Below the pieces are notes generated by a model that saw nothing but the letters and a program-made list of their open reading frames with translations, made no database searches and had not been told where the DNA came from. Positions 1,445 to 25,819 of a stretch of DNA of 42,217 nt are shown here, piece by piece. Numbering within the stretch: the first letter of the stretch is position 1; each line of letters begins with the position of its first letter. The stretch is from Planctomycetes bacterium GWF2_41_51. GTDB taxonomy: Bacteria; Planctomycetota; Phycisphaerae; Sedimentisphaerales; UBA12454. The translations under genes were made by a program, and so were the position numbers. Location: assembly GCA_001825665.1 (NCBI GenBank), contig MHXZ01000008.1, forward strand, positions 1 to 42,217, given 5' to 3'.

Positions 1445-1461
1445 ATTTAATATTCTCCATT

Positions 1462-4156: not shown

Positions 4157-4172
4157 GACCATAATCCTTTCT

Positions 4173-6179
4173 TTATTTATTATTTTGTAATTCGATATTG
4201 TTATTACTTTCTTCAACTTTCGGTCTCAATTCTCCGCGCTGGTGCCAATAGCCCAACATAAAAGCAAATTGATCTACGCCACTTTCTGGCAAAACATCTC
4301 CTTTTTCACTATCACTACCATTCAACTTGATCTTGTCGAATATCTCTTTAAGCCATTCGCTGTCCGTCTTGTATATATCATAGCAGAGACAATTTCTATA
4401 AAGTTGTACCAGTGTTTGTCTGGGCATATCTATAGCTGCTGAGAACAATTTGTCAGATAAAGTTGGTCCCCAGTTCCTACCTCGTTTTTGGATATTCTCA
4501 CATACAGCAAATAATCTTCCAGTGAGATAGCCAGAATCAGTTAATTTAATATCTATTCCCATATAATAATTTTCCTTTCCAATAATTGTTGTTAAATAAT
4601 GTCGAGCACATCCTGCTGCTATGGCAAGAAGTTTCAAATATTCGACGCGTTTTTTCCTCGATTGTTCAAGATGCTTATCTTTTATAGCTTTCTGTATTAT
4701 CAATTTACATAAATCAGCGGGTAGTGGCTGACCCGTCATAATCACCTCAATGACTTCTCTATCCCATACCAACCGTGTTTTTTTTTCAGATCTTATGCCA
4801 GCAGCAGATAGTATATCCATTAACGTAGGACAGAACTCACGAGCGTTGTCCTTTCTATCCAGATATTTATTTGGTATCATTACTTTCGTACGGTTAATAA
4901 ACAAATCTGTGTTGTCATCAAGAAGCCCCATAGTACCTGTATAACTTCCAATAATTGCGTGCCTGCCCTTTCGCCGCAAGAGAAGTGAAAGTAAATAAAA
5001 ATGCTTTTCTCGATAATCTGCTTTTTGCCCATTTCTAAAATTTTGCAAAGTTTTAATTAAATCACCAGTATAAGCCAATATTTTTCCTTTGCTTGTTTTT
5101 GCTTTTCCCCTTTTGAAATTACTTTTTTGTCCGTGAGGCTCGACAAGTTCATAACCACTCTTATCTAATATTTGATTATTTGATGATGTTTGATTGATCC
5201 ATATACAATTTACCGTTTCCTCAAAGTGGACAGAGGAATTATCAATCAGCCATTGCAAAGCTTTTGAATATTTCTCGGCCTCTTCAAATCCAATCTGAGC
5301 AGGAAGAGCACTGCCATCTTCTTCATCTTCCTTTTTGCCGGGTTTTCCTCTGTACGTTGCACTTAAATGAGCACAATATGTCGCTGCATTATTGAATGAG
5401 ACAAGACTGGCACCTTTGATCTTCGGGTGAAGTATGCGAGCAGGTTTTCGTTCACCATTTATTAAGCTAGTGATCCACCAATCCCCCTTTTTTTCTTGCA
5501 ACATCCTCCATGCTGTTTTTATGTGAGACAGTGCATTAACAGGCTTTCCAGAAGAACCTATTTGTTCGACAACCCATCGCATATTAATTTTTGAGGCATT
5601 TTGCTCCCATTTATTTCTGTCTGTATCAAAGAGTTTATTTTTCTTGCCGTCCAAGAGCTTGCTTTTTAATAAATCCTCAATGTGTTTCCAAACGGCTTTA
5701 AGCTTCTCCTCATCAGAAAGAAGTTGTTGTATCAATTTTATTTCGTGTGAAGAATTGACGGCATACATATCGTTTAACTGCCTTAAGTATGATTTGTGTC
5801 TCAATTTTCCCGGTGATTCGTCTTTTCTAATATCTATTTTTAGCTGCTTTTTGTTTGTTTCCTTTTTTTTATTAGGAGCAAGCTGGCCAAAAAGCCATGA
5901 GCAATTATCTACTATACCATGTGGAGAATCATTTCCGCTTGATCGACAAGCAGATTTTTCAGTAACAGGACAATCCAAATCTATACACGGATCATCTTTC
6001 GATTTTTTTTTGCCATTTTGAGAATCCTTAGGTTTTCCGAGCCAGTTCACTCGTCGGAAAGAACCATCATGACTCAAGACGATTTCTACCCACACTTCCA
6101 AGCTATTAAAATACGGGTCAGGCACAGGGACATTACATTCCTTCAGCACATCGTATTGTTTGATAAGTTCAGCGATCAT
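4173..6179 (-). CDS. cas8c: Cas8c (Csd1), large subunit of type I-C Cascade
   Basis: About 668 residues, the signature protein of subtype I-C. It recognises the PAM, opens the target duplex and recruits Cas3; in this subtype an internal translation start commonly also yields a small subunit (Cas11c) from the 3' part of the gene. Typical features are the short N-terminal motif IAELIKQYDVL, the GKENYYMGIDIKLTDSGYLTGRLF region and the C-terminal LGYWHQRGEL. Start: AAAGGAGG is followed by GTAATGATG. The second ATG (6177-6179) has 7-nt spacing and the first 4 nt, so the start is uncertain by one codon. It overlaps cas5 by 11 nt. Confidence 0.93.
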   Translation of the reverse strand: MIAELIKQYDVLKECNVPVPDPYFNSLEVWVEIVLSHDGSFRRVNWLGKPKDSQNGKKKSKDDPCIDLDCPVTEKSACRSSGNDSPHGIVDNCSWLFGQLAPNKKKETNKKQLKIDIRKDESPGKLRHKSYLRQLNDMYAVNSSHEIKLIQQLLSDEEKLKAVWKHIEDLLKSKLLDGKKNKLFDTDRNKWEQNASKINMRWVVEQIGSSGKPVNALSHIKTAWRMLQEKKGDWWITSLINGERKPARILHPKIKGASLVSFNNAATYCAHLSATYRGKPGKKEDEEDGSALPAQIGFEEAEKYSKALQWLIDNSSVHFEETVNCIWINQTSSNNQILDKSGYELVEPHGQKSNFKRGKAKTSKGKILAYTGDLIKTLQNFRNGQKADYREKHFYLLSLLLRRKGRHAIIGSYTGTMGLLDDNTDLFINRTKVMIPNKYLDRKDNAREFCPTLMDILSAAGIRSEKKTRLVWDREVIEVIMTGQPLPADLCKLIIQKAIKDKHLEQSRKKRVEYLKLLAIAAGCARHYLTTIIGKENYYMGIDIKLTDSGYLTGRLFAVCENIQKRGRNWGPTLSDKLFSAAIDMPRQTLVQLYRNCLCYDIYKTDSEWLKEIFDKIKLNGSDSEKGDVLPESGVDQFAFMLGYWHQRGELRPKVEESNNNIELQNNK

Positions 6180-6906
6180 CATTACACCTCCTTTCAAATT
6201 GCTGTTTTATGACTGTTTTGTCGTCTGGATGCGGATAATCAAGAACACCATTTTGTACCACTGCATGAAAAAATATTGGCGTATCTGTCCCATTTTCACC
6301 AGTCCCCCAGTCCCAACTATGAAACATCAACCCTATATCCATTGTTAATCCCGTTTGACCTATTTGCTTCCATTCTTTACGTTGTTCTTCCACAATAGCA
6401 TCGAATTTTTCTTGTGGTTTTAACTCAGAGTATTTTCCATTAATTGGTTCTACAATGGCAGTACATTCCCGCAATCCCAAAAAAACATCACGGCGACCGC
6501 CTATCTTCAATGATCGATAAAAAACATCGAGATGCTTGCCAAGATTTTCGTCTTCAGGTGTTTTACCTGACCAATTAAAAAATGCTTCAATTATATAATG
6601 TACATTATAAAGATATGTCTGCATCTTTTGCATTCTCTTCTCAGATGCAACAAATGGTTTCAATGTAATAATCGGGTCTTTTACTTCATTAACCATAATG
6701 CTTTGATATCTGATGGGATTCAATATAAGAACCCGTTGCGGTACCCAGTAAAATGCTGGTTTTGCGTATATCGAACGAAGAACGCCCGAAATAGCACCAA
6801 ATGTTGGAACGGGGTATGTAAATCTCTCTATTCGTAGATCATGTCTGGTGAATAATGCACGTTCTGCGTGAATACTAAAAACAATTAGTGGTGATGCTTT
6901 ATTCAT
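6169..6906 (-). CDS. cas5c: Cas5c, crRNA-processing subunit (type I-C)
   Basis: A 245-residue RAMP protein. In I-C systems, which lack Cas6, Cas5c cuts the pre-crRNA within the repeat and stays on the 5' handle. The N-terminal motif RIERFTYPVPTFGAISGVLRSIY is the Cas5 hallmark (aromatic-P-x-P-x-x-G-A-x-x-G-x-L). The downstream VHYIIEAFFNW and HLDVFYRSLKIGGRRDVFLGLREC segments fit the Cas5d subgroup. No cas6 is present, consistent with this role. The ATG overlaps the cas3 stop by 4 nt. Confidence 0.95.
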   Translation of the reverse strand: MNKASPLIVFSIHAERALFTRHDLRIERFTYPVPTFGAISGVLRSIYAKPAFYWVPQRVLILNPIRYQSIMVNEVKDPIITLKPFVASEKRMQKMQTYLYNVHYIIEAFFNWSGKTPEDENLGKHLDVFYRSLKIGGRRDVFLGLRECTAIVEPINGKYSELKPQEKFDAIVEEQRKEWKQIGQTGLTMDIGLMFHSWDWGTGENGTDTPIFFHAVVQNGVLDYPHPDDKTVIKQQFERRCNDDR

Positions 6907-9260
6907 ACAATATAATCCTCCATTGAAAGTTCATCTGGCCCTATAAGGCCTGTTTCGCCATAACATTTTTCATTTATAAGAATAAGCCAACCGCTTTTAC
7001 TTTTAAATATAAAAGAATTAAATTTTGGAAGTGAATCTTTGAAAACTTGTACCGAGTATCTTCCGGCCAGCTTATATTCATCAAATCCTAATTCGTCTCC
7101 TTGGTAAAGCATTTTGACAAGAGACTTTCCTTCATCACCATATGGCACAATAACAGAGACCGTGTCTTTTTCAATTATTCGGAAATCTTGAGAAATTGTT
7201 GTAAATGCCACATCAGAACCTTCCTCCAGCTTTCGAGGCGATGCGAGCCGAGCAATAATATCTTTTGAATCCATTTCAGAAGCACGGCTCCAGTACATTC
7301 TTTTAAAATATTCCTCAATTGCTTTAAGACCAATGGGATCTTTTTCAGTTTTCGTAAGTGCTATATTGCTATCAAGAGCTGAAAGAGTATCAATAGCTAT
7401 ACGTTGCGATTCAATTATATCTCTAAGATCACCGAGATTTTCCTCGGCTTCAAAAAAATATACCTGTCCAAGCTGAGTCATCTTACCCTCCCGATTACAT
7501 CGTCCAGCCGCTTGAGTAATAGAATCAATTCCAGCAATTGCTCGAAATACAACATCAAAATCAAGATTTACACCAGCTTCAACTATTTGCGTGCTAACAA
7601 CAATTGGTGTTTTGGACTTTACCTTACGACCATAAAATGCTAACAATTTGACAATCTCAATAACATCTTTTCGGTGTTGTGGGCACATACTCGTTGATAA
7701 ATGCCATAAGCTATCTTCCAAATCTTCTTTCTTTTTCAATTCTTTAAATATTGTTTTAGCATTTCTTTTTGTGTTGACAATGCATAAAATGCTTTTATTT
7801 TCATAGGCTTTTTCTGCTACTCTTTCAGAAATATCAATCGCAGAAAGAGCCTTATCAGATTCTATTGGATGCACTTCGACGCGTTTAAGAATGGTGAAAT
7901 ATTTATGGGGATACTTTACTATTGAACGAATGTTTTTGATTCCGACCCTATGGTTGTCAGTTTTTTTTGCGTCTAACCGTTTTGAATCAAAAATTGGCTG
8001 TGTTGCTGTGCAAAATACAACTGTGCAGCCATAGTTAGTAACCAGTTCTTCAAGTGCCCACATTATCGCTTTCAGATAACGAACAGGAACATTTTGTGCC
8101 TCATCAAGAATTATAACAGACCGTCTAACTGAATGCAGGCGCCTACACCAACTGGGCTTTGCGGTATAAAGTAATTCAAAAAATTGGACACTTGTAGTTA
8201 CAACTATTGGGCTGCTCCAATTCTCAGCCAGTAGTTTACTGGCTAGTGTCTCCTTTACTGGTTCTATATTGCTATGGTGTTCGAGTACATTAATCGTTCT
8301 ATTATCAGAATCCAAAATCTTGCGGAACACGTCTGCATTCTGTTCGATAATTGTAGTATAAGGCATAACATATATCACTCGTTCCATACCATGTTGTGCA
8401 TGATGCAGTGCAAATCGTAAACTTGCCAGAGTTTTTCCACCTCCAGTTGGAACAGTAAGTTCAAAAAAACCCGGCTTGCTTTTAGCAGTATCCTTACATT
8501 GTTGCGAAACTTCCTTACGTACCTCATTCACTATGCCACTTGATGAAAGAGTTATGAGATGATCTTCTAATCTTTTTTGTAGTACTTGTAAAGAATCTGT
8601 CTTTATAGCTGTTCTAATTCTCCATTGTTCGGGATTACCTGCTCTTTCTGAATCTAATCTATCAGCATCCACGAGAGCACTAAAAAGCATCCTTATAGCA
8701 AACTGAAGTGAAAATGCATCACGGCCTGAAAAAATACCATCTGAATCTATCCATCGACAGATAAATTCCACTTCCTCATTTTTGATAATATTATCAACCA
8801 ATTCCTCAATCCGTTGAGTAATCTCCGGTCCAATATTGGAAACGTATGGCTCAATTTTTTTTGCGAGGCGATTGTCAAGAGATGCGCCATTTCCTGTCCC
8901 AACACTATTGAGCAAACCAGCATGATGCCCTACAATGGTATGCGCAATGATACGTCCAACCAGTTCAGCAATCCTTTGTACCTCACTATCACCAGTTTGT
9001 TCGGCCTTTTTACGAAGAATACTCATTATCAGTTGTGCACCCGCCGAAGAATGATCCGGTTTACCTGGAAAATCCTCATCTCCATCTTCCTCAGTATTCA
9101 TTTTAAGGGATTTCTGAAAAGCTATTGAATACTTTCCAATATCATGAAGCATTCCAACAGTTTCTCCATAAGTGCCGTTGTCTGAAAGATGAAAGGCTTT
9201 TTTGGCAACTTCAAGCAGATGGTTTTTGAGTTCCTGTCCTTTTCTCGCCATAAATTTCAT
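6903..9260 (-). CDS. cas3: Cas3 HD nuclease-helicase
   Basis: A 785-residue interference effector that unwinds and degrades Cascade-bound DNA. HD nuclease: H14 (LKNHLLEVA), H39-D40 (MLHDIGK), DHSSAGA near 69-75 and GHHAGLL near 111-117. SF2 helicase: Walker A VPTGGGKT (270-277), DEAQ box (386-389), CTATQP (motif III) and QAAGRCNREG (motif VI). All catalytic motifs are present, but the N-terminus is short: it begins MKFMARKGQELKNHL and lacks the usual YYAH...W segment. That segment instead occurs in the separate coupled ORF at 9257-9418, whose stop overlaps this start (ATGA). Confidence 0.95.
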   Translation of the reverse strand: MKFMARKGQELKNHLLEVAKKAFHLSDNGTYGETVGMLHDIGKYSIAFQKSLKMNTEEDGDEDFPGKPDHSSAGAQLIMSILRKKAEQTGDSEVQRIAELVGRIIAHTIVGHHAGLLNSVGTGNGASLDNRLAKKIEPYVSNIGPEITQRIEELVDNIIKNEEVEFICRWIDSDGIFSGRDAFSLQFAIRMLFSALVDADRLDSERAGNPEQWRIRTAIKTDSLQVLQKRLEDHLITLSSSGIVNEVRKEVSQQCKDTAKSKPGFFELTVPTGGGKTLASLRFALHHAQHGMERVIYVMPYTTIIEQNADVFRKILDSDNRTINVLEHHSNIEPVKETLASKLLAENWSSPIVVTTSVQFFELLYTAKPSWCRRLHSVRRSVIILDEAQNVPVRYLKAIMWALEELVTNYGCTVVFCTATQPIFDSKRLDAKKTDNHRVGIKNIRSIVKYPHKYFTILKRVEVHPIESDKALSAIDISERVAEKAYENKSILCIVNTKRNAKTIFKELKKKEDLEDSLWHLSTSMCPQHRKDVIEIVKLLAFYGRKVKSKTPIVVSTQIVEAGVNLDFDVVFRAIAGIDSITQAAGRCNREGKMTQLGQVYFFEAEENLGDLRDIIESQRIAIDTLSALDSNIALTKTEKDPIGLKAIEEYFKRMYWSRASEMDSKDIIARLASPRKLEEGSDVAFTTISQDFRIIEKDTVSVIVPYGDEGKSLVKMLYQGDELGFDEYKLAGRYSVQVFKDSLPKFNSFIFKSKSGWLILINEKCYGETGLIGPDELSMEDYIV

Positions 9261-9418
9261 GGTAGAAACCTTCCCTCACCTGCATCGAAAGCTGAAGCAA
9301 AAGCTTTTGCTAATTCAGCAGTTGCCAATAAGTGATTTTCTAATAATTGCCAATGTTCGCCTTCTTCAAGTAATTTACCATCGGGGTCTGTATGTGCGTA
9401 ATAATTTTTATCTGCCAC
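9257..9418 (-). CDS. 53-aa leader ORF resembling a Cas3 N-terminus
   Basis: A GTG start (9416-9418) lies 6 nt after a strong purine-rich SD (AGAGGGGG), and the ORF ends TGA at 9257-9259, overlapping the cas3 ATG. The product begins VADKNYYAHTDPDGK, continues HWQLLENHLLATAELAKAF and ends EGRFLP. This is the classic I-C Cas3 N-terminus (YAH...W..L..HL..TAELA..FA) stopping just before the HD motif. The following cas3 has its own version of the same helix (GQELKNHLLEVAKKA), and the two show no obvious DNA similarity, so this is not a recent tandem duplication. It may be a remnant of a replaced cas3, a split N-terminal subunit, or a translational coupler. Confidence 0.6.
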   Translation of the reverse strand: MADKNYYAHTDPDGKLLEEGEHWQLLENHLLATAELAKAFASAFDAGEGRFLP

Positions 9419-9600
9419 AGATTTCCCCCTCTGCGCGGATATTTGAAATGAACATCCTGTAAAATTTCTGCCTCATCCTTAATCTCTCACAAACCATAAT
9501 CAAACCAAATACCTTTCCGATCAAAAATTATTATTAAGAAAGGGTCTTAGGTTTGACTTGTCCTCAAAGACAGCGTCGGTTCCAACCCGAACCAATGATA

Positions 9601-9630
9601 ACTATAAGATGAACTTTCAACTATTGTCAA
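9601..9630 (-). promoter_or_regulatory. Sigma-70-type promoter of the cas operon
   Basis: On the minus strand TTGACA (9625-9630) is followed after 18 bp by TATAGT (9601-9606), a near-consensus housekeeping promoter reading toward the cas3 leader ORF. The start of transcription would be near 9594, leaving an untranslated leader of about 175 nt before the GTG at 9418. It lies 47 bp from the left dif-like site and outside the segment bounded by the two sites. Confidence 0.65.
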
Positions 9631-9677
9631 CAAGAAACTTTACTTTCCATAGTAAAAATGCTATATTAATACCAAAA

Positions 9678-9705
9678 GGTTCATAAAAGGTGTGAAATCT
9701 GAACC
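9678..9705 (+). repeat. dif-like 28-bp site, left copy
   Basis: Twenty-eight bp with an 11-6-11 layout: left arm GGTTCATAAAA, centre GGTGTG, right arm AAATCTGAACC. The outer six bases of the arms are inverted repeats (GGTTCA/TGAACC). It matches the copy at 9898-9925, in opposite orientation, at 23 of 28 positions including the whole centre. The arms also form a 10-bp hairpin (9674-9683 with 9700-9709) followed by a T run on the plus strand, so a terminator is an alternative reading. The layout is that of tyrosine-recombinase core sites such as dif, and a recombinase gene lies 250 bp away. Confidence 0.55.
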
Positions 9706-9897
9706 TTTTTTTATTGTCATTTCAAAAACATTTCCCAAAAAATCGTCGATAAAATAATTTTTTTTACTTTTTTTGATTTTTCCCATCACCACAAACAATT
9801 CACTTTTCAAAGAAACTTCTTTCCATAATTAAGGCCACTGCAAAGCCATATCTCCTTTAAAACAAAGAATTTAAATAGCTCTGTCTTTGTCAGGAAA

Positions 9898-12150: not shown

Positions 12151-12570
12151 TTATACAGTATGCTTTTTCAAAATAAGTTTTTCATGCTTACCATCAAAAG
12201 TTATCTTAAATTTTGAAAAGAATTTATTTCTGCCTAAGATGATCGGACATGAATCATCGGAACTGACAAGGATAGGAATCTTAAATTCATGCTCTTCATG
12301 GTTTTGCCTCAGAGTAATACTGACATCAGATTCAATGCATTCAATTTTACCGCCAAAGCCAAATGAGTCTTGCTTTGGCCCTGTCAGATCTAAATTCAAT
12401 ACTTCCGCCAGACCCTTTGGAATCACAGAACAATCCGCCCCTGAGTCAACCAACGCGATAACATCCATCTTTAAATTTGAATTGCCTTTAAAGCATACCG
12501 GAATCGATGGCGTTTTAACTTTGGATCCTTTTTTCCCCGGGAGGATTTTATAGTGATATATCAAGGCCAT
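12151..12570 (-). CDS. Retropepsin-like aspartic protease
   Basis: 139 residues with the retroviral-type catalytic motif ALVDSGADCSVIP (D42 region), then a flap-like segment GFGGKIECIESDVSI and the C-terminal hydrophobic-hydrophobic-G motif CPIILGRNKFF typical of single-domain retropepsins, which act as homodimers. No signal peptide is visible, so it is probably cytoplasmic. It starts one base after the stop of the DUF5678-like gene, so the two are co-translated, a pairing seen widely in bacteria and archaea. Physiological substrate unknown. Confidence 0.88.
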   Translation of the reverse strand: MALIYHYKILPGKKGSKVKTPSIPVCFKGNSNLKMDVIALVDSGADCSVIPKGLAEVLNLDLTGPKQDSFGFGGKIECIESDVSITLRQNHEEHEFKIPILVSSDDSCPIILGRNKFFSKFKITFDGKHEKLILKKHTV

Positions 12571-12571
12571 T

Positions 12572-12775
12572 CTAAAGAATCATTGTCCCTTCCTCAGGAA
12601 CCCTTGCCAAAAGAAACTTTTTGTCAGGACATTTCTCTTGAGCCTCACTCACAATCTTTTTAATATCTTCACCGGAAGCAATTACATGTTCATCACACAA
12701 AATAATCCATTTTCCTTTATACTTTTCCAAATTCGCGGTCAAATAAGCAGAATAATTCTCATCGTTCCTGGCCAT
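12572..12775 (-). CDS. DUF5678-like small protein
   Basis: 67 residues: MARNDENYSAYLTANLEKYKGKWIILCDEHVIASGEDI... and ...KFLLARVPEEG. The pattern NLE.Y.GKW...(V/I)ASG.D...I...A......F.ARVPE matches the small DUF5678 domain commonly encoded next to retropepsin-like proteases. A TTG at 12793 could add six residues; I chose the ATG because the family begins shortly before ENY. No function is known. It may be a substrate or partner of the neighbouring protease. Confidence 0.75.
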   Translation of the reverse strand: MARNDENYSAYLTANLEKYKGKWIILCDEHVIASGEDIKKIVSEAQEKCPDKKFLLARVPEEGTMIL

Positions 12776-12823
12776 ATGGAATATAGGATTCAAATGTTTA
12801 TAAATCTTTCAGTTGGGTATGTC

Positions 12824-13364: not shown

Positions 13365-13787
13365 ATGCAAAACCAACAAGAAATCACGAGTATCAACTAT
13401 TTTCTATCGAAAACCGGGCCGGTAATCATTTATTCGTTGAAATCATTTCTTCAAGCTGCTGGCATTGAAGTAGAAGAAAAAGGCAATGGATTGGATACGG
13501 TTTTTCAAATCCAAGTCGGTAAAAAAGAACTTCAGCTTTATCTGGGCAATCTGCTTCTTGAAATCGCAACTATTGACAGGGATGAAGCACCATTGCGATT
13601 TGATGAAGGTCTTCTGGATTTTGATTACTTCCTCAGCAAACTATCCAAGGTAATTGAAAGCAAGTTACAAATCCTATTTAAACTGCTTGAGCACGAAGAT
13701 GTTGACAAGGCAATGGAAAGTATCACCGAATTGACTTCAAATTATGAAAGAATATGTATTTTAAAGCTGGATAACCCACAATCCTAA
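13365..13787 (+). CDS. Unknown protein, first gene of the Ubl-associated run
   Basis: 140 residues, mostly alpha/beta with alternating hydrophobics and no signal peptide; SD TTAGGAG 8 nt before the ATG. No family recognised. It opens a run of same-strand genes (13365-18448) that ends in the ubiquitin-like conjugation cassette; gaps are mostly 10-130 bp, so co-transcription is likely, though a partial terminator lies at 16004-16048. Confidence 0.75.
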   Translation: MQNQQEITSINYFLSKTGPVIIYSLKSFLQAAGIEVEEKGNGLDTVFQIQVGKKELQLYLGNLLLEIATIDRDEAPLRFDEGLLDFDYFLSKLSKVIESKLQILFKLLEHEDVDKAMESITELTSNYERICILKLDNPQS

Positions 13788-13847: not shown

Positions 13848-14126
13848 ATGGTTGCACCAATCGGTAATTCAAGCAAAAAGGTCATTAAATTATTGCCTCA
13901 GGAACAAGAGGGCAAATACATGTTCAGTAGCCAATTCGTCTCAACACGCCACGCAATCGACAAATTCGGCGAGGCAGTAATTATAGCCGCCCACATCATT
14001 TTGTTAAAAGCTGTTAAAGAAAAAGGTGGTTTAGATTATCTGCAGGTCCTTGAAATCGACGGCCAGAAACTCTGGTTCATCGATGATGTTGACCACGTAA
14101 CGGCACTGCTGCCGGAAGATTATTGA
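13848..14126 (+). CDS. Unknown 92-aa protein of the Ubl-associated run
   Basis: Begins MVAPIGNSSKKVIKLLPQEQEG after SD CTGGAGG. The C-terminal half (VLEIDGQKLWFIDDVDHVTALLPEDY) looks like a beta hairpin plus short helix. No TM segment, no cysteines. Function not recognised. A 6-bp hairpin CACCTG/CAGGTG follows in the 125-bp gap to the next gene. Confidence 0.7.
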   Translation: MVAPIGNSSKKVIKLLPQEQEGKYMFSSQFVSTRHAIDKFGEAVIIAAHIILLKAVKEKGGLDYLQVLEIDGQKLWFIDDVDHVTALLPEDY

Positions 14127-14251: not shown

Positions 14252-14440
14252 ATGAACAAATTTATTAAGATAACCTCCGGCTTTGTTGTGCAGGAATTTA
14301 AAAAGAATCCTGCCGGCCAGTTTGTATGTACAGGCCAGGCATTTATCGCAGGCGACCAGGTGGATTATGAAGATGAAAACGGCAATTCAATAAGTCCTCC
14401 TCCTGATCACCTGTACCAGCAATTCAAAATGGTTCTATGA
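14252..14440 (+). CDS. Unknown 62-aa protein of the Ubl-associated run
   Basis: Begins MNKFIKITSGFVVQEFKKN and has a compact beta pattern (GQFVCTGQAFIAGDQVDYED) ending in PPPDHLYQQFKMVL. SD GGGAG precedes the ATG. Its end overlaps the next gene region: ATGATGG follows directly. Size and pattern suggest a small beta domain, possibly a binding or adaptor protein. No function recognised. Confidence 0.7.
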   Translation: MNKFIKITSGFVVQEFKKNPAGQFVCTGQAFIAGDQVDYEDENGNSISPPPDHLYQQFKMVL

Positions 14441-14451
14441 TGGAGGCAAAT

Positions 14452-14673
14452 ATGTACGATGAAATATTTGAGAAAGTCAAACGTCAAAGTTCAATCTGTA
14501 GGAAATTGCGAAGGATGGCACATGAGGCTAAAGGACTTAAAGTTCCTCTGCCAACTTTACCGCTTAAAAACTGGTTTGATGGCACAATTCTAAATCCGGA
14601 TGCTGAAGTATTTTTTGAAGCATATGATTTATCAAAACTGCTTCAATATATTGCGGATATTGGTTTGGAATAA
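14452..14673 (+). CDS. Unknown 73-aa protein of the Ubl-associated run
   Basis: Begins MYDEIFEKVKRQSSICRKLRRMAHE. I chose this ATG because GGAGG (14442-14446) lies 5 nt before it; an upstream ATG pair (14437, 14440) overlaps the previous stop. Basic helical N-terminus and acidic, leucine-rich C-terminus (LSKLLQYIADIGLE). No family recognised. Confidence 0.65.
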   Translation: MYDEIFEKVKRQSSICRKLRRMAHEAKGLKVPLPTLPLKNWFDGTILNPDAEVFFEAYDLSKLLQYIADIGLE

Positions 14674-14692: not shown

Positions 14693-14887
14693 ATGGAAGC
14701 AATTGAAACGCTGCAAGAGTTGGAAAAGCTGTTTTCAGAAACAATGTTGTGTGAATTTGCCGATAATGAAACTGCGCCGGGCAACAGGCTGATAGTTGAA
14801 CATCTAAGACAAAAAAATTACACAAACAAGCAAATAGCAACTTTACGGTCAGTTATTTTTATGGATGCAAGGCGTAACGGCTGGTAA
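14693..14887 (+). CDS. Unknown 64-aa protein of the Ubl-associated run
   Basis: Begins MEAIETLQELEKLFSETML; predicted all-helical, with KNYTNKQIATLRSVIFMDARRNGW at the end resembling a small three-helix domain. SD GTGAGG lies 8 nt before the ATG. No family recognised. Confidence 0.65.
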   Translation: MEAIETLQELEKLFSETMLCEFADNETAPGNRLIVEHLRQKNYTNKQIATLRSVIFMDARRNGW

Positions 14888-14945
14888 ATCAACTCCATAT
14901 ATTATTTTTATAATAATAACCTATTTTAAACAGAAGGAAGATTTT

Positions 14946-15227
14946 ATGTCTAAAAATATTTACACAATACTCCTTAAAGAACAATGTGCTGATACACTAT
15001 TGCCTTCTGAAATAAAGGTAAAAATCTTATCAGAAGGCGGTCAGATATGGATCCAGCCGGATGGTTTCGGCGGAAAATGTGCGATGGATGGCGAAGGTTA
15101 TCCAATTGGCATTGAAATCTGGCAAGGCAGGCTTCGTCTAATAATATTCGACGACATCAACAGTGAAGATCCGCAGATAATTGACTTGGAAAATGCCAGA
15201 GAAACTTGCCGGCTGGATAATGATTAG
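14946..15227 (+). CDS. Unknown 93-aa protein of the Ubl-associated run
   Basis: Start chosen at 14946 (MSKNIYTILLKEQC) because AGAAGGAAG lies 5 nt upstream; the frame is open further 5' without a start signal. Beta-rich with glycine turns (EGGQIWIQPDGFGG, GEGYPIGIEIWQGRLRLIIF). Ends in an acidic tail. The fold could be a small beta sandwich. No family recognised. Confidence 0.7.
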   Translation: MSKNIYTILLKEQCADTLLPSEIKVKILSEGGQIWIQPDGFGGKCAMDGEGYPIGIEIWQGRLRLIIFDDINSEDPQIIDLENARETCRLDND

Positions 15228-15254: not shown

Positions 15255-15548
15255 ATGCCCAAAATAAAAAATCAAATCAATATCGCAAAGATAATCTACT
15301 ATGCTTACTCACACGCGGATTTACTGCCAATCGACTCTGAACAAGATTGCCGGGATTTGGATACTTTATTGGCAAAAGTAATCAATGAAGACATCGGCGA
15401 TGGATTGTTTAAATTTATCGTAACTGAAATTGTTGAAGGCGGTGAAGGAAAAATAACAGGCGCAATAGTTGTAATGGAAAAGGCAAAAAAAGATGTGGAA
15501 ACTGTATTGCGTGCTCTTCAAGAAGCGTTAATCAAAGCAAGAATTTAG
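15255..15548 (+). CDS. Unknown 97-aa protein of the Ubl-associated run
   Basis: Begins MPKIKNQINIAKIIYYAYSHAD after GAAAGGGA. Helical N-terminus, then LFKFIVTEIVEGGEGK and a long C-terminal helix (KAKKDVETVLRALQEALIKARI) that could mediate oligomerisation. No family recognised. Confidence 0.7.
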   Translation: MPKIKNQINIAKIIYYAYSHADLLPIDSEQDCRDLDTLLAKVINEDIGDGLFKFIVTEIVEGGEGKITGAIVVMEKAKKDVETVLRALQEALIKARI

Positions 15549-15728: not shown

Positions 15729-15983
15729 ATGAGAATACTTTTTATCAACAACGCAGGAACCGGCTATGCTGATCATCTTGAAATTGGCGAAGGCACAACA
15801 GTCGAGCAGTTCTTCAAAATCAAAATGCCGAATCAGAATGAAGCAGATTATCTGATTCGCGTCAATCGCCAGCCCGTCTCAAGAGATTACATAATTCAGG
15901 AAGGTGATCGTGTTACTTTTACACCTCAGAAAATCGAGGGCGCGCGAGATAATAAGCCGGTTGTTATCTGCGCAAAACGATAA
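15729..15983 (+). CDS. Ubiquitin-like beta-grasp modifier (ThiS/MoaD-type)
   Basis: 84 residues with the beta-grasp pattern: strand-turn-strand MRILFINNAGTGYADHLEI, helix TTVEQFFKIKM, strand ADYLIRVNRQPV, then GDRVTFTPQKIEGA, which is nearly the ThiS/MoaD C-terminal consensus (EGDRV...P.K.EGA). A 12-residue extension RDNKPVVICAKR follows, and there is no Gly-Gly terminus. The role as conjugated modifier is inferred from the E2, JAMM and E1 genes that follow at once. The tail may be removed by the JAMM protease, or conjugation may not use a diglycine. SD AAGGGA. A terminator follows directly. Confidence 0.85.
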   Translation: MRILFINNAGTGYADHLEIGEGTTVEQFFKIKMPNQNEADYLIRVNRQPVSRDYIIQEGDRVTFTPQKIEGARDNKPVVICAKR

Positions 15984-16003
15984 TTTAAATTGGCAATATT
16001 TCC

Positions 16004-16048
16004 AGGCATCTGTTTGTCCTTTTGATGAGCAGATGCCTTTTTATTTTG
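16004..16048 (+). terminator. Intrinsic terminator/attenuator between Ubl and E2
   Basis: Perfect 9-bp stem AGGCATCTG (16004-16012) and CAGATGCCT (16030-16038), 17-nt loop, then TTTTTATTTT, ending only 13 nt before the E2 start codon. It lies inside an otherwise unidirectional operon. This suggests that most transcripts stop after the modifier gene, so Ubl would be made in excess over E2, JAMM and E1. Confidence 0.85.
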
Positions 16049-16060
16049 GAAAGGAAAAAT

Positions 16061-17083
16061 ATGGATAACAGATTATTATTTAAAATATCCCTGTTAATTT
16101 CACAAAAGCTCACTTCTCTTGAAAAGAATACATCTATTGAGCTTCTCGAAAGATTAACAAAATTGGCAGAACATTTTAGAGATATGACACAGGAATCGAG
16201 ACGAATTGCTCTTGCACTAAACAGAAATTGGCTTTTTTCAGCTAAGAGATGCCGGGAGAATTTAGTCAGGATACTCGACGAGATTCCATACAAGATCGAA
16301 ACAATAAAACAGATCAGCAATAAAGATGACCAGGAAGGGACTCCTATCGTTTCGTTAATTTTTGCTGAATTAACGCAAATCAGGCAGGAATTTTCAGATG
16401 CTGATTTCAATAGTGATAAACGAATCATATCCGTTGTAACAAAACCTGTAACTCTCGAAGATATTTATCTTGGTCCTTTCCGGATAGAACTCTACATTGA
16501 TAAATTGTCAAGCCTATACAAGGAAAGCCCATATTATTGTATCGCATTAGAACCTAATCCTGCCGCAAATAACGGTGAAGTTACACACCCACACGTAAGT
16601 GGCGAAACACTATGCGAAGGTGAGGGCTATGTCGCAATAAGAGCAGCGTTGGAGCAAGGACGAATGTATGACTTTTTTACGATAGTAAACAATATTCTCA
16701 ACACTTATAGCCCTGACAGTCCATATGTAGCCTTGGACGATTGGTTCGGCGGAGCAGACTGCTATGATTGCGGATCAAGTATTAGTGAAGACGATTCGTA
16801 CTACTGCGGTTTTTGCGGCAGAGTATTCTGTTCAGAATGCAGCAGTTACTGTAGGTCGTGCGAGGAATCGTGTTGTCTTGGTTGCGGTGGTCATTGTCCG
16901 AATTGCGAAGAATTCATCTGCAAAAATTGTCTAAAAGTATGCCAGGAATGCGGTGAGCGTTATTGTAATTTATGTATGGAAGATAGTATTTGTGAAACAT
17001 GTAAAGAACAAAATGAAACAGAAGAATTGGAGAATACAAATGAAACCGATGGAAAACAAGATAATTTCAAAATGGCAGGCTGA
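16061..17083 (+). CDS. E2-like conjugating enzyme fused to a Cys-rich zinc domain
   Basis: 340 residues; start chosen at the ATG after GAAAGGAAAAA (an upstream frame crosses the terminator). Residues 1-120 are helical and unknown. Residues 125-225 fit a UBC fold: the HPHV motif (176-179) followed by GETLC with C185 as candidate catalytic cysteine, then helices ending FFTIVNNILNTYSPDSP, matching E2 topology (HPN...C...I..IL). Residues 234-314 hold about ten CxxC pairs in 80 residues, a binuclear treble-clef/RING-like or B-box-like array that could act as a built-in E3 or substrate reader. The acidic C-terminus overlaps the JAMM gene by 44 nt. Fusion of E2 and zinc domain is visible; the E3 role is inference. 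Confidence 0.85.
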   Translation: MDNRLLFKISLLISQKLTSLEKNTSIELLERLTKLAEHFRDMTQESRRIALALNRNWLFSAKRCRENLVRILDEIPYKIETIKQISNKDDQEGTPIVSLIFAELTQIRQEFSDADFNSDKRIISVVTKPVTLEDIYLGPFRIELYIDKLSSLYKESPYYCIALEPNPAANNGEVTHPHVSGETLCEGEGYVAIRAALEQGRMYDFFTIVNNILNTYSPDSPYVALDDWFGGADCYDCGSSISEDDSYYCGFCGRVFCSECSSYCRSCEESCCLGCGGHCPNCEEFICKNCLKVCQECGERYCNLCMEDSICETCKEQNETEELENTNETDGKQDNFKMAG

Positions 17084-17792
17084 TGAGAAAAGGCCTGTTC
17101 TAAGATTCAGCCCGTATGCATGGGCAAAACTGTTATATTTCAGAGATAAAGGCAGAACTGAAATCGGAGGCTTTGGAATTACTGAAGCCGGTGATTTGCT
17201 TCATATTACTGACTTTATAACAGTCAAACAGAATGTAACTTCAATCAGTGTGTCTTTCGAAGATAATGCCGTTGCTGATTTGTTTGACCAACAGGTTGAT
17301 ATGGCTAAAAGGCCGGAGCAATTCGCAAGAATCTGGGTACACTCTCATCCCGGCGACAGTCCTGAACCAAGTCTCACGGACGAGGACACTTTTAAAAGAG
17401 TTTTTGGGTCTTGCGATTGGGCGTTGATGTTCATAATAGCCAAAGATGATTCTGTTTATGCAAGGCTTTCTTTCAATACAGGCCCTAAAGCTCAAATAAT
17501 GCTTCCTGTCAGAATTGATTTCACAAGAGAATTTAATGGCACTGAAGTTGCTTTCTGGGAAAAAGAGTTCAAGGAAAATATTCAGCCAATAGTCTTTAAT
17601 AGTATTATTGACAAGAAAAAAGAATCTTCAACTATTCAGCCGAGTATATGCGAATTCGATGAACCGATTTTGCCGACAGAATGGCTGGAAGAATTCGAAA
17701 GAATGGAGCCGGCAGAACGCCAGTTTATCATCGATGAGCTTTCGGTAAGGCCGGAACTTTGGAATCAGGATGAGGGGGTGATGTATATATGA
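17040..17792 (+). CDS. JAMM/MPN+ metalloprotease (deubiquitinase-like)
   Basis: 250 residues. The JAMM zinc motif is complete: E41 (TEIGGFG), H101-S-H103-P, S111 and D114 (HSHPGDSPEPSLTDED), so it should be an active Zn isopeptidase. The expected job is removal of the modifier from targets and/or trimming the C-terminal tail of the Ubl precursor. The C-terminal 100 residues are an acidic extension of unknown role. Start: GGAG 7 nt before ATG 17040; the frame is open further upstream but only as overlap with the E2 gene. Its stop overlaps the E1 start (ATGA), so the two are coupled. Confidence 0.9.
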   Translation: MKPMENKIISKWQADEKRPVLRFSPYAWAKLLYFRDKGRTEIGGFGITEAGDLLHITDFITVKQNVTSISVSFEDNAVADLFDQQVDMAKRPEQFARIWVHSHPGDSPEPSLTDEDTFKRVFGSCDWALMFIIAKDDSVYARLSFNTGPKAQIMLPVRIDFTREFNGTEVAFWEKEFKENIQPIVFNSIIDKKKESSTIQPSICEFDEPILPTEWLEEFERMEPAERQFIIDELSVRPELWNQDEGVMYI

Positions 17793-18448
17793 GTAATGAC
17801 GATAGATATTCAAGACAAAAAGGTATTGTGCCGGCAGAAAGAATTTCTCAATGCAAAGCTACGGTAATTGGTGTCGGCGCTATCGGCAGACAAGTTGCCC
17901 TGCAGCTTGCCGCTATTGGAGTTCCATGGCTTCAGTTATTCGACCACGATAGAGTGGAATTAACCAACATCGCAAGTCAGGGCTACTTTGAAGAAGACCT
18001 TAATCGGTTCAAGGCGGATGCGACAGCCGATCTATGCTGGCATATAAACAGCCAATTGGAGATTGACCCTCATACAGAAAGATTCCGCAGGAGTATAAAA
18101 ACCGGAAATGTTGTATTTTGTTGTGTGGATAGTATTGCCACAAGGCAGTTGATATGGGAATCCGTTAAGAACAGAACCAGTTGTTTTATCGATGGAAGAA
18201 TGGCTGCTGAGGTACTCAGAGTTCTTACGGCCTGTGATGTCAAATCGCGGGAATATTATCCAACCACACTATTTACTTCTGAGCAAGCTTATACTGGCTC
18301 CTGCACCGCAAAGACAACGATTTATTGCGCCAATATCGCGGCAGGTCTGATGATAAGTCAGTTTACAAAATATCTGCGAAATCTGCCTGTTGAAGCGGAT
18401 ATACAGTTTAATCTATTGGCAAATGAAATAAGCGTCGAACAGTGTTAA
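17789..18448 (+). CDS. E1-like ThiF/MoeB-family adenylyltransferase
   Basis: 219 residues, an adenylation domain only. The nucleotide loop GVGAIG (28-33) is followed by FDHDRVELTNIASQGYFEEDL (52-71), the E1 signature with Asp, Arg, Asn and Gln positions, and CCVDSIATR (111-119). C172 in GSCTAKTTIY is a candidate thioester cysteine. The zinc-binding CxxC pairs of ThiF/MoeB are absent. It would adenylate the Ubl C-terminus and pass it to the E2. It is smaller than most E1 proteins. Coupled to the JAMM gene and followed by a terminator. Confidence 0.9.
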   Translation: MSNDDRYSRQKGIVPAERISQCKATVIGVGAIGRQVALQLAAIGVPWLQLFDHDRVELTNIASQGYFEEDLNRFKADATADLCWHINSQLEIDPHTERFRRSIKTGNVVFCCVDSIATRQLIWESVKNRTSCFIDGRMAAEVLRVLTACDVKSREYYPTTLFTSEQAYTGSCTAKTTIYCANIAAGLMISQFTKYLRNLPVEADIQFNLLANEISVEQC

Positions 18449-20715: not shown

Positions 20716-21894
20716 ATGAAAATAGACCCATATAAACACAAAGAAGTTTTTCTAAAATGGAAAGACAAAACCACAGGCGACATAAATGGAATAAGCAAAA
20801 TCAATTCTGACATCATCCTTCAATACATCTCGGACATGGAAAATGGCCTGAATGTTTCCTCCAAAAGCATGAAAGGGCCGAGAAGTTTCATTCGGCTAAA
20901 TAATCTTAGGCAACGAATGGTTTTCCTTGCAAAGTACATTGAACAGCACTGCAATATCAATCTTGTTGATTTAAGTGAAGAGCAGATAATTAAATTCTTT
21001 AATGCAATGCGAAACGGCACAATCAAAAGATTGGATGGAAAATGTTATAAGTCCGTCGTGGACTTCGTAAAGCCGTTCAAAGCGTTTTGGCATTGGCATA
21101 TAAAGGTTAATAAAAAGAAGGGTATCGGAATAAAAGATATAACAGAAGATATCGATGTTTCAAATTCTAAACCTAAGTGGGTATATTTATCGCAGGAACA
21201 AATAAAAAGATTGTGTGACAATGCTAAACTTGAATATAAAGTTCTGATTATGTTTTTGTATGACACCGGCATTCGTAGTCCAACGGAACTGCTCAATATT
21301 CAGGCCGCTGACATATACGAAGACTTTAAAAAACTTCATATCCGCCAGGAAATCGCCAAAAAGGGTAGTTTCGGAAGAAAGATCAACCTGATGCTTAGTT
21401 CTGATTTATTAAAACAATACGTCCAGGATAAAGGATTGCAAAATAATGATCAGCTATTCGAAATTTCACCAATTGTTATTAATCAATATTTGAAACGTTT
21501 GGCAAAAAGAGTCTTAGGCGAGGGTATGAGTCTGGCGGGCGAGAAATATTCCAATTTGACTATGTACGATTTAAGGCATTGCTCCTGCTGTTACTGGCTG
21601 CCTCGTTACAAATCGGAATCTGCCTTAAAATATCGTTTCGGCTGGAAGAAGTCTGATAAAATTCACTATTATTCTGAACTGCTTGGTATGAAAGACACAA
21701 TCACCGAAGAAGATATGCTTATTGATCTTACTAAAACTGAAATAGAAAAAAGACTCCTGAAAACTGAACAGGAAAATGAAATACTGAAAGAAAAACTACA
21801 AGCTTTTAATACCGATGTCATCCAACTTAAAGCCCTGATGCATATCTATATATCCAAAGTGAAGCAGTTTGAAGATTTACAACCCGGCTTATAG
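20716..21894 (+). CDS. Atypical tyrosine recombinase with C-terminal coiled coil
   Basis: 392 residues. N-terminal SAM-like core-binding domain (about 1-145), catalytic domain 150-325: R187 (YDTGIRSPTELL), LRHCSCCYWL with R287-H288, and Y318/Y319 (KIHYYSELLG). The first His of the HxxR box is Y284, and the usual LGH is replaced by FGWKKSD with W310, a pattern known from archaeal-type integrases. Residues 335-390 form a heptad coiled coil (TEIEKRLLKTEQENEILKEKL). No strong SD before the ATG. It may move one of the island's sub-modules. Confidence 0.85.
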   Translation: MKIDPYKHKEVFLKWKDKTTGDINGISKINSDIILQYISDMENGLNVSSKSMKGPRSFIRLNNLRQRMVFLAKYIEQHCNINLVDLSEEQIIKFFNAMRNGTIKRLDGKCYKSVVDFVKPFKAFWHWHIKVNKKKGIGIKDITEDIDVSNSKPKWVYLSQEQIKRLCDNAKLEYKVLIMFLYDTGIRSPTELLNIQAADIYEDFKKLHIRQEIAKKGSFGRKINLMLSSDLLKQYVQDKGLQNNDQLFEISPIVINQYLKRLAKRVLGEGMSLAGEKYSNLTMYDLRHCSCCYWLPRYKSESALKYRFGWKKSDKIHYYSELLGMKDTITEEDMLIDLTKTEIEKRLLKTEQENEILKEKLQAFNTDVIQLKALMHIYISKVKQFEDLQPGL

Positions 21895-23059: not shown

Positions 23060-23452
23060 ATGTCAAAATTTAGAAAATCTTTAGAAGAGAAAGCCGAGTT
23101 CCTGACATCAGTGCCCAAGCGAGAACAATGGGACAAGTCAATCCCATCAATAGTTCGTAGGGAAATAGCCTTGACGGTCGAACAGATCAAGCGTTTGAAA
23201 GAAAAGCACGATGAGCAATTCCTTCGTTTACTTCGCATCGAGTGTTATGTGGATACCGATTTGATGCAGCTTGAACAGCGTATACCCCGGTATGCCCCTT
23301 ATCATTTTCCGGAAAAGGAAAAATTGAAGCAGCGATTATTTGAGATTGAAAAAGAGCGTCGGAATTTAAGTCTAAAACTGGAGGAGAAAACGCAGGGGCT
23401 TGAAGATAAATTGTTGTCGTTGATAAATAAACATCAGCAGCTTGATATTTAA
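23060..23452 (+). CDS. Coiled-coil accessory protein
   Basis: About 130 residues, highly charged, with long heptad-like helices (VEQIKRLKEKHDEQFLRLL, LKQRLFEIEKERRNLSLKLEEK). Starts MSKFRKSLEEKAEFL; a TTG nine bases upstream is possible. The last base of its stop codon is the first base of the next ATG (TAATG), so translation is coupled to the HerA-like ATPase, with which it probably forms a complex. Confidence 0.75.
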   Translation: MSKFRKSLEEKAEFLTSVPKREQWDKSIPSIVRREIALTVEQIKRLKEKHDEQFLRLLRIECYVDTDLMQLEQRIPRYAPYHFPEKEKLKQRLFEIEKERRNLSLKLEEKTQGLEDKLLSLINKHQQLDI

Positions 23453-25392
23453 TGATGAATATTGAAAAAATCGCCGCCAAACTTAAAACGCTCATCCCAG
23501 ATAGAATCCCATACTGGCTTAAGACAAGAGAACTCGCTGACCCGGAATTAAAATCATTGATTGAAAAACAAATCATCTCTACCGCCTACAAAACCTTCGG
23601 CGATTTCCACGATAAAATCCTTCTTTCGCTCCCACCCGAAAACAAATCTAACGGTTCATTAAATTTCGGAACGATTCTCTATGATAAAGAAAAACACCCC
23701 TTCGGAATCTCTAATACCGAACTCCTACAAAACATGGGTATATTCGGGCGTAGTGGAAGCGGAAAAACCAACTTTGCCTTTCATATTATCAAACAGCTTG
23801 ATTCTCAAAAAATTCCCTACCTCTTTTTTGACAATAAACGAACGTTAAGGCATCTGATCCCAGGATTAAAAAATAAGGTAAATGTTTATACACCCGGCAG
23901 GTCATTGTCTAAATTAAGCTTTAATCCATTCGTAATCCCGCCGGGACTGGAAAATTCTGTCTATATCAATCAGCTTGTAGATGTTCTGGCAAATGCTTTT
24001 ACTTTAGGTGATGGATCAAGAAGTATATTACAGAAAGCAATTTCTGCTTGTTATCGACAAGGCAACCATCCTCCTCTTGTAAAAGATGTTATAATGGAAA
24101 TCGAAAAAATAGAATCAAAGGAGCGAGTAAGGGGTTGGAAGATTTCAGCATTGAGAGCACTTGAAACTTTAAATTTCTCAAACATCACAACAAACAGAAC
24201 TTCACAAGAAGAATTAATGCAAAACTTAATTGAAGGAAATACAATTATTGAATTGGACGGCCTTGGCGATGGGGCAAGAAAATTTTTAATTCCAATATTG
24301 TACCAATGGATTTTTCAGGTTAAACTATGTTCTCCTGTCAGGGAAAAACTGACGATGGCTGTATTTATAGATGAAGCCCACTTGATATTTGACAACCGTT
24401 CAAGCGGGACATTAATGGAGCGTTTGCTAAGACAGACGAGGGAATTAGGAATCGCCACGGTTGTAATGGACCAAACGCCAAGTTTAATGTCCAAGGTCGT
24501 ACTAGCAAATTGCTATACTAATGTTTTCCTGAATTTAGTAAGTGCAAGCGACCTTAGTAAAGCCGCCTCAGTTTGCCTGTTAGATCCTGACGAAAAAAAA
24601 TACTTCAGTATGTTGCCGGTTGGGCAGGGAATTATAAAACTTCAGGATAGATGGATGCAGCCATTTCTTGTTAAGTTTCCTTTGATGGATATTCAGAAAG
24701 GGGCGGTCACTGATGAAGTATTATTGAGGTATTTCAACGAAATATCCTCGAAAACCACACATTCCCCCCGGAAGATGTCTGTACCGCCTGCATTTGACGG
24801 ATTCCCGCGGATTCCCTTCGATGTTATACTCGAAAAACCAGCTTTGCAGATGCTTTACGATATACTTACACACCCGCAAGATGGTGTAAGACATCGCTAC
24901 AGGCGTTTAGGCATCAGCGATAAGAAAGGACATCAGACTAAGGAAACGCTACTAAATCAGGGATGGATTGAGAGCCAGACTGTTGAGTTAGGCCGCACAA
25001 GAAAGATTATATTAAGGCTTACTAAACAAGCTAAAGAGACACTTGGGCTGGATACTGAAACACCTGAATATGGTTCCCTTGTACATGAATATTGGAAGCG
25101 TTTCTATGGACAGAAATTAGAACGTCAGGGCTATAAAATTGATTTCGAAGTTCCTCGAATATCTGGCAGAGTGGACGTTGTCGCCAAAAAAAAAGATGAA
25201 AAACTCGCCATCGAAATTGAGACCGGCAAATCCAATTTTATCCGGAATGTGCAGCAGGATTTAGCTGCCAGATATGACAAAATTATTGTCGTCGCAACTG
25301 ACAAGTCCGCTTTCGATAAAATCGAAAAGAAGCTGATCGAAGCCGGCCTTTTAATTCCCAGAAGGGTTGAACTTGTATTGGCAGCGAAATAA
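23452..25392 (+). CDS. HerA-type ATPase fused to winged helix and nuclease-like domain
   Basis: 646 residues. HerA/FtsK-superfamily ATPase (DUF87-like): Walker A GRSGSGKT (99-106), Walker B AVFIDEAH (303-310) and a conserved arginine-rich RLLRQTRELGIATVV (324-337). Residues about 465-535 look like a winged helix (HPQDGVRHRYRRLGISDKKGHQTKETLLNQGWI). The C-terminal 90 residues fit a PD-(D/E)XK fold: GRVDVVAKKKDEKLAIEIETGKS with D575, E588 and E590. HerA ATPases are hexameric DNA translocases; fusion to a restriction-like nuclease suggests a DNA-processing, transfer or defence machine. The third acidic position is EIE rather than ExK, so activity is uncertain. Confidence 0.85.
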   Translation: MMNIEKIAAKLKTLIPDRIPYWLKTRELADPELKSLIEKQIISTAYKTFGDFHDKILLSLPPENKSNGSLNFGTILYDKEKHPFGISNTELLQNMGIFGRSGSGKTNFAFHIIKQLDSQKIPYLFFDNKRTLRHLIPGLKNKVNVYTPGRSLSKLSFNPFVIPPGLENSVYINQLVDVLANAFTLGDGSRSILQKAISACYRQGNHPPLVKDVIMEIEKIESKERVRGWKISALRALETLNFSNITTNRTSQEELMQNLIEGNTIIELDGLGDGARKFLIPILYQWIFQVKLCSPVREKLTMAVFIDEAHLIFDNRSSGTLMERLLRQTRELGIATVVMDQTPSLMSKVVLANCYTNVFLNLVSASDLSKAASVCLLDPDEKKYFSMLPVGQGIIKLQDRWMQPFLVKFPLMDIQKGAVTDEVLLRYFNEISSKTTHSPRKMSVPPAFDGFPRIPFDVILEKPALQMLYDILTHPQDGVRHRYRRLGISDKKGHQTKETLLNQGWIESQTVELGRTRKIILRLTKQAKETLGLDTETPEYGSLVHEYWKRFYGQKLERQGYKIDFEVPRISGRVDVVAKKKDEKLAIEIETGKSNFIRNVQQDLAARYDKIIVVATDKSAFDKIEKKLIEAGLLIPRRVELVLAAK

Positions 25393-25393
25393 A

Positions 25394-25819
25394 TCAGGAC
25401 ATCTTTCCAAGATTCATATCCATTCTATGTCGCTGAATTTTCCGAAGTTTACCCTCAAGGGCCTGCTCAATTTTCTCGATAATCATCTCCTGCCATGGCC
25501 CTCTCATGGTCGATTCAATCAGGTAAATCCCATTAATACCGGCCTCTTGATACACCTTCATTTTGTGGGCAATCTGTTCGTTATATGAACTATCACCATT
25601 CATCCCAAAATATTCCAAAATCATTCCATATTCCGGCAATTTGAAATCAGGGTACCAAATTTTTGTCTTCCCTCTATCAATAATTGCCAATGGATATTCA
25701 TATTGATATGCAATCTGCTGCATCTCAAAGAACTCTGCTATTTCTCTTTCACCTTTACTTTTGAATGAAGAATATTTATCGAAACTTGTCGCCTCCGCAT
25801 TATGCGCATAATAAAACAA
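25394..25819 (-). CDS. Vsr-like PD-(D/E)XK endonuclease
   Basis: 141 residues, compact nuclease fold: SKGEREIAEFFEMQQIAYQYEYPL (E26 helix), IWYPDFKLPEYGMILEYFGM (D58, E69) and a helix AHKMKVYQEAGINGIYLIE. This is the arrangement of very-short-patch-repair-like and related small nucleases. It converges with the HerA-nuclease gene with one base between the stops, so the two are either a functional pair on opposite strands or an insertion boundary. Confidence 0.8.
   Translation of the reverse strand: MFYYAHNAEATSFDKYSSFKSKGEREIAEFFEMQQIAYQYEYPLAIIDRGKTKIWYPDFKLPEYGMILEYFGMNGDSSYNEQIAHKMKVYQEAGINGIYLIESTMRGPWQEMIIEKIEQALEGKLRKIQRHRMDMNLGKMS

Follow-up and report, generated by a model that had tools for sequence, protein, structure and literature searches.

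A predicted ubiquitin-like conjugation cassette of planctomycete islands and phages

Bacterial operons for ubiquitin-like proteins (Ubls) have so far been discussed chiefly as anti-phage weapons. Contig MHXZ01000008.1 of Planctomycetes bacterium GWF2_41_51, the 42,217-nucleotide stretch analyzed here ("the window"), carries four adjacent genes on the plus strand at 15729-18448, in the order Ubl-E2-JAMM-E1 and with all catalytic residues intact. The same cassette is found in other planctomycetes and on dozens of viral contigs. That it performs protein conjugation is likely. The reading favored here, with a probability of about 0.58, is that it is a Ubl-conjugation pathway carried by mobile elements, both integrative islands and large phages, and serving the element itself. 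It looks more like a tool of these elements than a simple host defense. The parts list of bacterial Ubl operons is already known; what is surprising is that phages carry this version of it.

The four genes and their products

An earlier note, made from the letters of the window alone, had read this region as four same-strand genes for a Ubl, an E2, a JAMM protease and an E1, and all four open reading frames (ORFs) were confirmed. The Ubl (15729-15983) is an 84-residue beta-grasp modifier of the Pfam ThiS type. It is followed by the 340-residue E2 (16061-17083, with its ATG at 16061), a 250-residue JAMM/JAB isopeptidase (17040-17792, Pfam Prok-JAB) and the E1, a ThiF-type adenylyltransferase of 219 residues (17789-18448, Pfam ThiF). 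The overlaps that the note had described, 44 nucleotides between the E2 and JAMM genes (17040-17083) and an ATGA shared by the JAMM and E1 genes (17789-17792), are both present.

The E2 gave no Pfam match in a search of the four cassette proteins. It consists of a helical N-terminal region (residues 3-86), a UBC (ubiquitin-conjugating) domain (approximately 92-230) and a C-terminal array of nine CxxC pairs (234-314), in agreement with the Cys-rich fusion that the note had pointed out. A H176-P-H178 motif lies upstream of the predicted catalytic C185. H176, P177, H178, C185 and G187 are invariant in an alignment of 22 homologues, and the HPH...C.G pattern is kept at 51 of 52 loci after removal of duplicates; the exception, without the expected HPH...C motif, is the E2 of locus L082 (6441-7187). 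An AlphaFold model of the whole protein, with a predicted local distance difference test (pLDDT) score of 87, begins with a long helical stretch, continues into an alpha/beta domain and ends in a Cys-rich tail. Since a structure search with the full-length model was swamped by coiled-coil matches from the N-terminal helices, residues 92-232 were modeled alone (pLDDT 91). The top Foldseek matches of this domain were E2s from rank 1 on (UBE2A, E = 0.026), and all 50 matches listed by VIA-align were E2 enzymes, the best being UBE2S (Z = 7.7, root-mean-square deviation 3.5, 120 residues). The scores are modest, but there is no competing fold, and on these models the protein is an E2 with a UBC fold around C185, as had been proposed. 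In a profile search, the zinc array had weak matches to the RING of TFIIH p44 (5.4e-4), to FYVE and to the RNF4 RING; it may be an E3-like, RING-like domain. At locus L048, a second E2-like gene (8982-9836), apparently degenerate, sits between the Ubl and E2 genes.

The Ubl matches Pfam ThiS exactly at the cut-off (E = 1.6e-4, 22.5 bits). Its conserved end, K68-I-E-G71-A72, is followed by a variable tail of 12 residues. G71 is invariant and A72 nearly so among 13 aligned relatives, whose tails beyond this point differ in length; across loci, the tail after the K-I-x-G71-A72 end ranges from 0 to about 30 residues, and most Ubls lack a terminal GG. Three phage loci (L075, L077 and L078) encode Ubls made of several domains in tandem; in that of L077, the one inspected most closely, the domains meet at KVEGA- or GG-type junctions. 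Both the variable tails and the tandem junctions fit a JAMM that would trim the former and split the latter.

The JAMM protein matches Pfam Prok-JAB (1.8e-6), and among solved structures it is closest to archaeal and eukaryotic Rpn11, headed by archaeal Rpn11 6fjv (E = 5e-4). The metal-motif residues E41, H101, H103, S111 and D114 are invariant in the close family, and the HxHP...S..D motif is present at 51 of 52 loci (again without duplicates), the exception being the JAMM of L080 (7205-8002). The E1 has one ThiF domain at positions 17-199 (4.4e-23) and is related to UBA7, ThiF and Citrobacter BubCD among solved structures. Its GxGxxG, its adenylation D, R and K and a Cys (C172 in the window) are all invariant in the alignment, which also bears out the description of a short E1 without CxxC pairs. 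L075 holds a second E1-like gene at 23-655.

All of the residues that the earlier note had singled out are present (HPH176-178 and C185 of the E2; E41, H101, H103 and D114 of the JAMM; GVGAIG and DHDRVELTN of the E1), and the catalytic ones are invariant in close relatives. The note had also named what would speak against it, namely a missing UBC fold or genes that never co-occur; the fold was found in the models, and the genes co-occur throughout.

Spread among planctomycetes and phages

At least one copy of the E2 occurs in 6 of 40 relatives and in 15 of 392 genomes of the phylum, with a maximum of five per genome; the GWF2_41_51 genome itself has five E2 copies. The order Ubl-E2-JAMM-E1 on one strand is found at all 33 planctomycete loci, with the sole exception of a contig that ends before E1. 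When IMG/VR was scanned with E2, E1 and JAMM profiles, 34 distinct contigs of 18-191 kb were recovered. The latest scan had all four genes within 4 kb of E1 at 23 of 31 loci; seven of the other eight are on contigs with all four genes in the earlier, wider loci, and at the last one the contig stops just before the JAMM gene. The four-gene order is kept in effectively all of the 34 contigs. The four proteins also co-diverge: their pairwise distances correlate with r = 0.67-0.81 over 49 loci (0 of 2000 permutations). With the order constant in planctomycete and IMG/VR loci and the distances correlated, the arrangement is not due to chance.

Many of the viral contigs are real phages, since a terminase (two families, E of 1e-3 or better) is present on 10 of the 20 cassette-bearing ones tested. 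The HK97 capsid family PF05065 was not found on the cassette-bearing viral contigs. Phage locus L079 (96-4458) has a run of two Ubl genes and three E2-like ORFs, and its JAMM lies inside an ORF of 1333 residues.

The planctomycete copies are found in a different setting. Downstream of the window cassette is a tyrosine recombinase (20716-21894, plus strand; Pfam Phage_integrase, 3.2e-7) that is the probable mobility gene of the island. Other copies have integrases or serine recombinases nearby, and tyrosine or serine recombinases lie near many of the chromosomal copies. Terminase PF03237, the sole terminase family searched in nine carrier genomes, was not found in seven of them; in the remaining two, it is far from the cassette (G143) or on a different contig (G000). 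Because the family was not found or is distant, the chromosomal copies appear to reside in islands and not in tailed prophages, as far as PF03237 shows. A prophage origin of the planctomycete copies was set aside on the same ground. In the E1 tree, the window E1 pairs with other genera, away from its own paralogues (support 82-89, which is modest, with none starred), and viral sequences are placed inside both bacterial groups too.

Searches by tblastn with the window E2 gave no match among PLSDB plasmids or INPHARED phages. In the phage search, where the E2 had found none, the window E1 matched 84 phage records, including crAss001 and other Steigviridae, the Flavobacterium Fpv1 group and the 227-kb Xanthomonas/Erwinia phages. 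Seven crAss-like loci share the order primase, two unknown genes, a JAMM-type metalloprotease, a ThiF-type protein, another unknown gene and, where annotated, a uracil-DNA glycosylase. When the E2, JAMM and Ubl profiles were run directly against crAss-like proteins in a hidden Markov model search, no match was significant. In a profile-profile comparison with ten crAss gene families, of which six served as controls, each of the four cassette profiles ranked the syntenic crAss gene best of the ten. The E1 scored 1e-32, and the Ubl, E2 and JAMM about 0.001-0.003; HPHV...LCEG is paired with HSHV...PCxG in the alignments, and the JAMM motif is aligned as well. It is probable that crAss-like phages, which include phages of the human gut, carry a homologous cassette beside the primase, for which the E2 and Ubl assignments draw on weak profile scores and gene order.

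In crAss001 itself, the probable Ubl-E2-JAMM-E1 homologue (gp79-gp76; L091, 2298-6708) is annotated as hypothetical, metalloprotease and thiamine biosynthesis. In Flavobacterium phage Fpv1 (L093, 3725-6017), an endonuclease ORF on the opposite strand apparently interrupts the JAMM-like gene, leaving it in two parts. The PHROGs entry for the E1 family reads unknown function, and among the papers accessible to a literature search none ties crAss-like phages to such a Ubl system.

The cassette keeps recurrent company, which overall consists of AAA+ ATPase, DUF3150-like, DUF1257/DUF2997, DUF2958 and recombinase genes. In the Pirellulaceae-type loci, the common upstream genes are DUF1257-, DUF2997-, AAA+ ATPase- and DUF3150-like. 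Loci closer to the window have DUF2958 and small unknown ORFs instead, and some have a GHKL ATPase. The AAA+ ATPase accompanies the cassette at 17 loci, four of which are viral contigs, and on two of those four it comes with a DUF3150-family protein, as a direct neighbor at L083 and by homologue on the other. The Pirellulaceae partner of the AAA+ ATPase was the best of 33 against the phage DUF3150 profile (E = 2e-5); a DUF3150 Pfam search of the carrier genomes gave no match, with control genomes equally without one. At L075, L077 and L078, the cassette is flanked by SbcC-like and ResIII-type helicase genes, beyond which come a DnaB-like gene and a primase-like gene, the latter recognized by sequence inspection only.

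Known systems, proposed pathway and alternatives

The cassette has the same components as the Bil, type 6d/PRTRC and tri-ligase systems, but lacks features that define each of these. The PRTRC cassette, which we take to be the same as the type 6d operons of Iyer, is distinguished by its E1: the window E1 scores 33.7 bits with the PRTRC ThiF model, against a cut-off of 144.75. Type 6d operons, sporadic in bacteria, have stand-alone Ubl, JAB, E1 and E2 genes, and their E2s have a conserved His after the Cys and none upstream (PMC1779556), unlike the window E2 with its invariant H176 and H178 upstream of C185. Type 6b operons (CBASS Cap2/Cap3) have the E1 fused to the E2 (PMC1779556). The window cassette resembles these in its E1/E2 chemistry and its JAB, but unlike CBASS type II, the planctomycete loci encode E1 and E2 separately, with the JAMM gene in between; no CD-NTase was seen among the best PADLOC matches listed for 74 flanking proteins (25 top families).

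The BilABCD system is a compact operon of BilA (Ubl), BilB (E2), BilC (JAB) and BilD (E1), in which the JAB processes the Ubl. BilA has two Ubl domains, BilB a CEHH motif with residues after the Cys, and BilD an inactive and an active adenylation domain plus a Cys domain (PMC11354881). Here, the four activities and the compact operon are the same. However, the residues after C185 are EGEGYVAIRAA, which lack the E/H/H of CEHH, and the His residues lie upstream of the Cys. The E1 has a single ThiF domain in 219 residues, and the PADLOC BilD model aligns only at 202-317 of its 453 positions; the Ubl is a single domain, and the E2 bears a zinc array. In the tri-ligase systems of Burroughs (2011), which have a prokaryotic RING E3, an E1, an E2, a RING-type component, a JAB and a Ubl occur together, with related systems reported in planctomycetes (PMC7159879). 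They have a separate RING gene and a Ubl fused to the E2, whereas in the window a free Ubl is combined with an E2 that contains the zinc array. The archaeon Caldiarchaeum subterraneum is described as having an operon for ubiquitin (Ub), E1, E2, RING and Rpn11, a full Ub-like set (PMC5654768, PMC6043591). Its likeness to the cassette is seen in the JAMM, whose closest solved relative is the 26S N11-like archaeal protein 6fjv, but its small RING gene is separate.

The gene set, predicted fold, conservation, distribution and neighbors are as described above, and from them we infer every chemical step, which proteins are modified and how the element profits. The JAMM would trim the variable tail of the Ubl to expose Gly71. 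The short E1 would then adenylate the Ubl and take it up as a thioester on C172, from which C185 of the E2 would receive it. The fused zinc array would give the E2 a built-in E3, so that no separate E3 gene would be needed, and the JAMM would also strip the Ubl from its targets. These are probably DNA-handling proteins of the element itself or of the host. Where present, the co-inherited AAA+ ATPase and its DUF3150 partner would extract or remodel the modified proteins. No proteasome-family subunit (PF00227) was found in the genome of GWF2_41_51 or in five related carriers, and because none was detected in the host's own genome, proteasomal reading of the tag is unlikely there and degradation coupled to it was set aside. 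PF00227 is present in some Pirellulaceae-type carriers. More tentatively, large phages, the crAss-like phages of the human gut included, and planctomycete islands may share a homologous, complete Ubl pathway acting on proteins for DNA replication or recombination, whether of the element or of its host; phages would then employ ubiquitin-type signaling in their own life cycle, beyond being its target.

Some observations weigh against a pathway that serves the element. A clear link to replication modules is seen in the crAss-like phages and in L075, L077 and L078, but neither in all phages nor in the window. The planctomycete copies are outside tailed prophages, as judged by the one terminase family tested, and their role may differ. 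Conjugated Ubls do not usually end in a single Gly-Ala, and conjugation by the cassette family is itself predicted from genes and models.

The most serious alternative is a Bil-like defense, in which the island cassette would attach the Ubl to proteins of an incoming phage, so that infection or virion assembly is blocked. The earlier note had called defense a fair inference on the strength of the CRISPR-Cas and NTPase/nuclease neighbors. Type I-C CRISPR-Cas genes (Cas3c and others; 1154-9260, minus strand) do lie beside the island in the window, and such genes adjoin one other copy of the 33, apparently L021. Among the matches listed for the 74 flank proteins in PADLOC are a single Gabija-like and a single AbiE-like one. 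The activities are those of Bil, the distribution is patchy and multi-copy, and mobile elements, including phages, often carry weapons against competitors. However, dozens of phages carry the same cassette, in some cases within replication modules, no defense partner recurs among the 33 planctomycete loci, and the Bil-specific motifs are absent. The CRISPR-Cas adjacency is probably incidental. With CRISPR genes at two of 33 loci, many copies phage-borne and the recurrent companions of another kind, a defensive role is possible but not favored.

Less likely still is counter-defense or host takeover, with Ubl conjugation serving phages and islands as a means of inactivating host proteins. Phage carriage would suit such a role, as would the duplicated Ubl and E2 genes of some phages (L079), but companions such as AAA+/DUF3150 or DNA-replication genes suggest housekeeping of the element. 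Sulfur-carrier or cofactor chemistry in place of protein conjugation is very improbable. The Ubl and E1 do belong to the ThiS/ThiF superfamily, but they are always accompanied by a UBC-fold E2 and an Rpn11-like JAMM, for which reason sulfur transfer was set aside; in addition, no rhodanese or biosynthetic gene is prominent among the shared neighbors, and most of the Ubls lack the terminal GG.

The family is thus set apart by its spread through phages and integrative islands, an E2 of classical fold with a built-in E3-like zinc array, and Gly-Ala Ubls that probably need processing. If conjugation is borne out, laboratory phages such as crAss001 and Bacteroides phage DAC15 would allow phage-encoded Ubl signaling to be tested; the genes in these phages are currently annotated as thiamine biosynthesis, metalloprotease or hypothetical. 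The family also bears on the question of whether E2s with fused zinc domains originated in mobile elements.

Upstream reading frames and other neighbors

A series of small conserved ORFs precedes the Ubl gene on the plus strand of the window. The nearest (15255-15548, 97 residues), with homologues upstream of Ubl in L015 and L017, is possibly in the same transcription unit as the cassette. The next (14865-15227), whose true start is probably an internal ATG, has homologues upstream of Ubl in L015, L016, L017, L019 and L020. Farther upstream are ORFs of 78 residues (14437-14673; homologues in L015, L016 and L017) and 62 residues (14252-14440; L015, L016, L017 and L019). An ORF of 92 residues (13848-14126) has a homologue in L014 and, by eye, an LLPEDY end in common with the ORF before Ubl in the Pirellulaceae-type loci. 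The last is 140 residues long (13365-13787), with homologues in L014 and L015.

On the minus strand at 12151-12793 are a gene for a retropepsin-like protein and a small partner gene; the same pair recurs close to another copy (L022, 8118-8742), and Dulem virus 41 has a gene annotated as retropepsin-like near its E1. A HerA-like ATPase gene, with a nuclease-like gene nearby on the opposite strand, is found at 23452-25819. Relatives of the former lie near the copies in L001 and L024, and of the latter in L024 and L020. Orc1/Cdc6-like AAA ATPases are encoded downstream of the cassette in L001 (7186-8238) and L020 (10995-12179).

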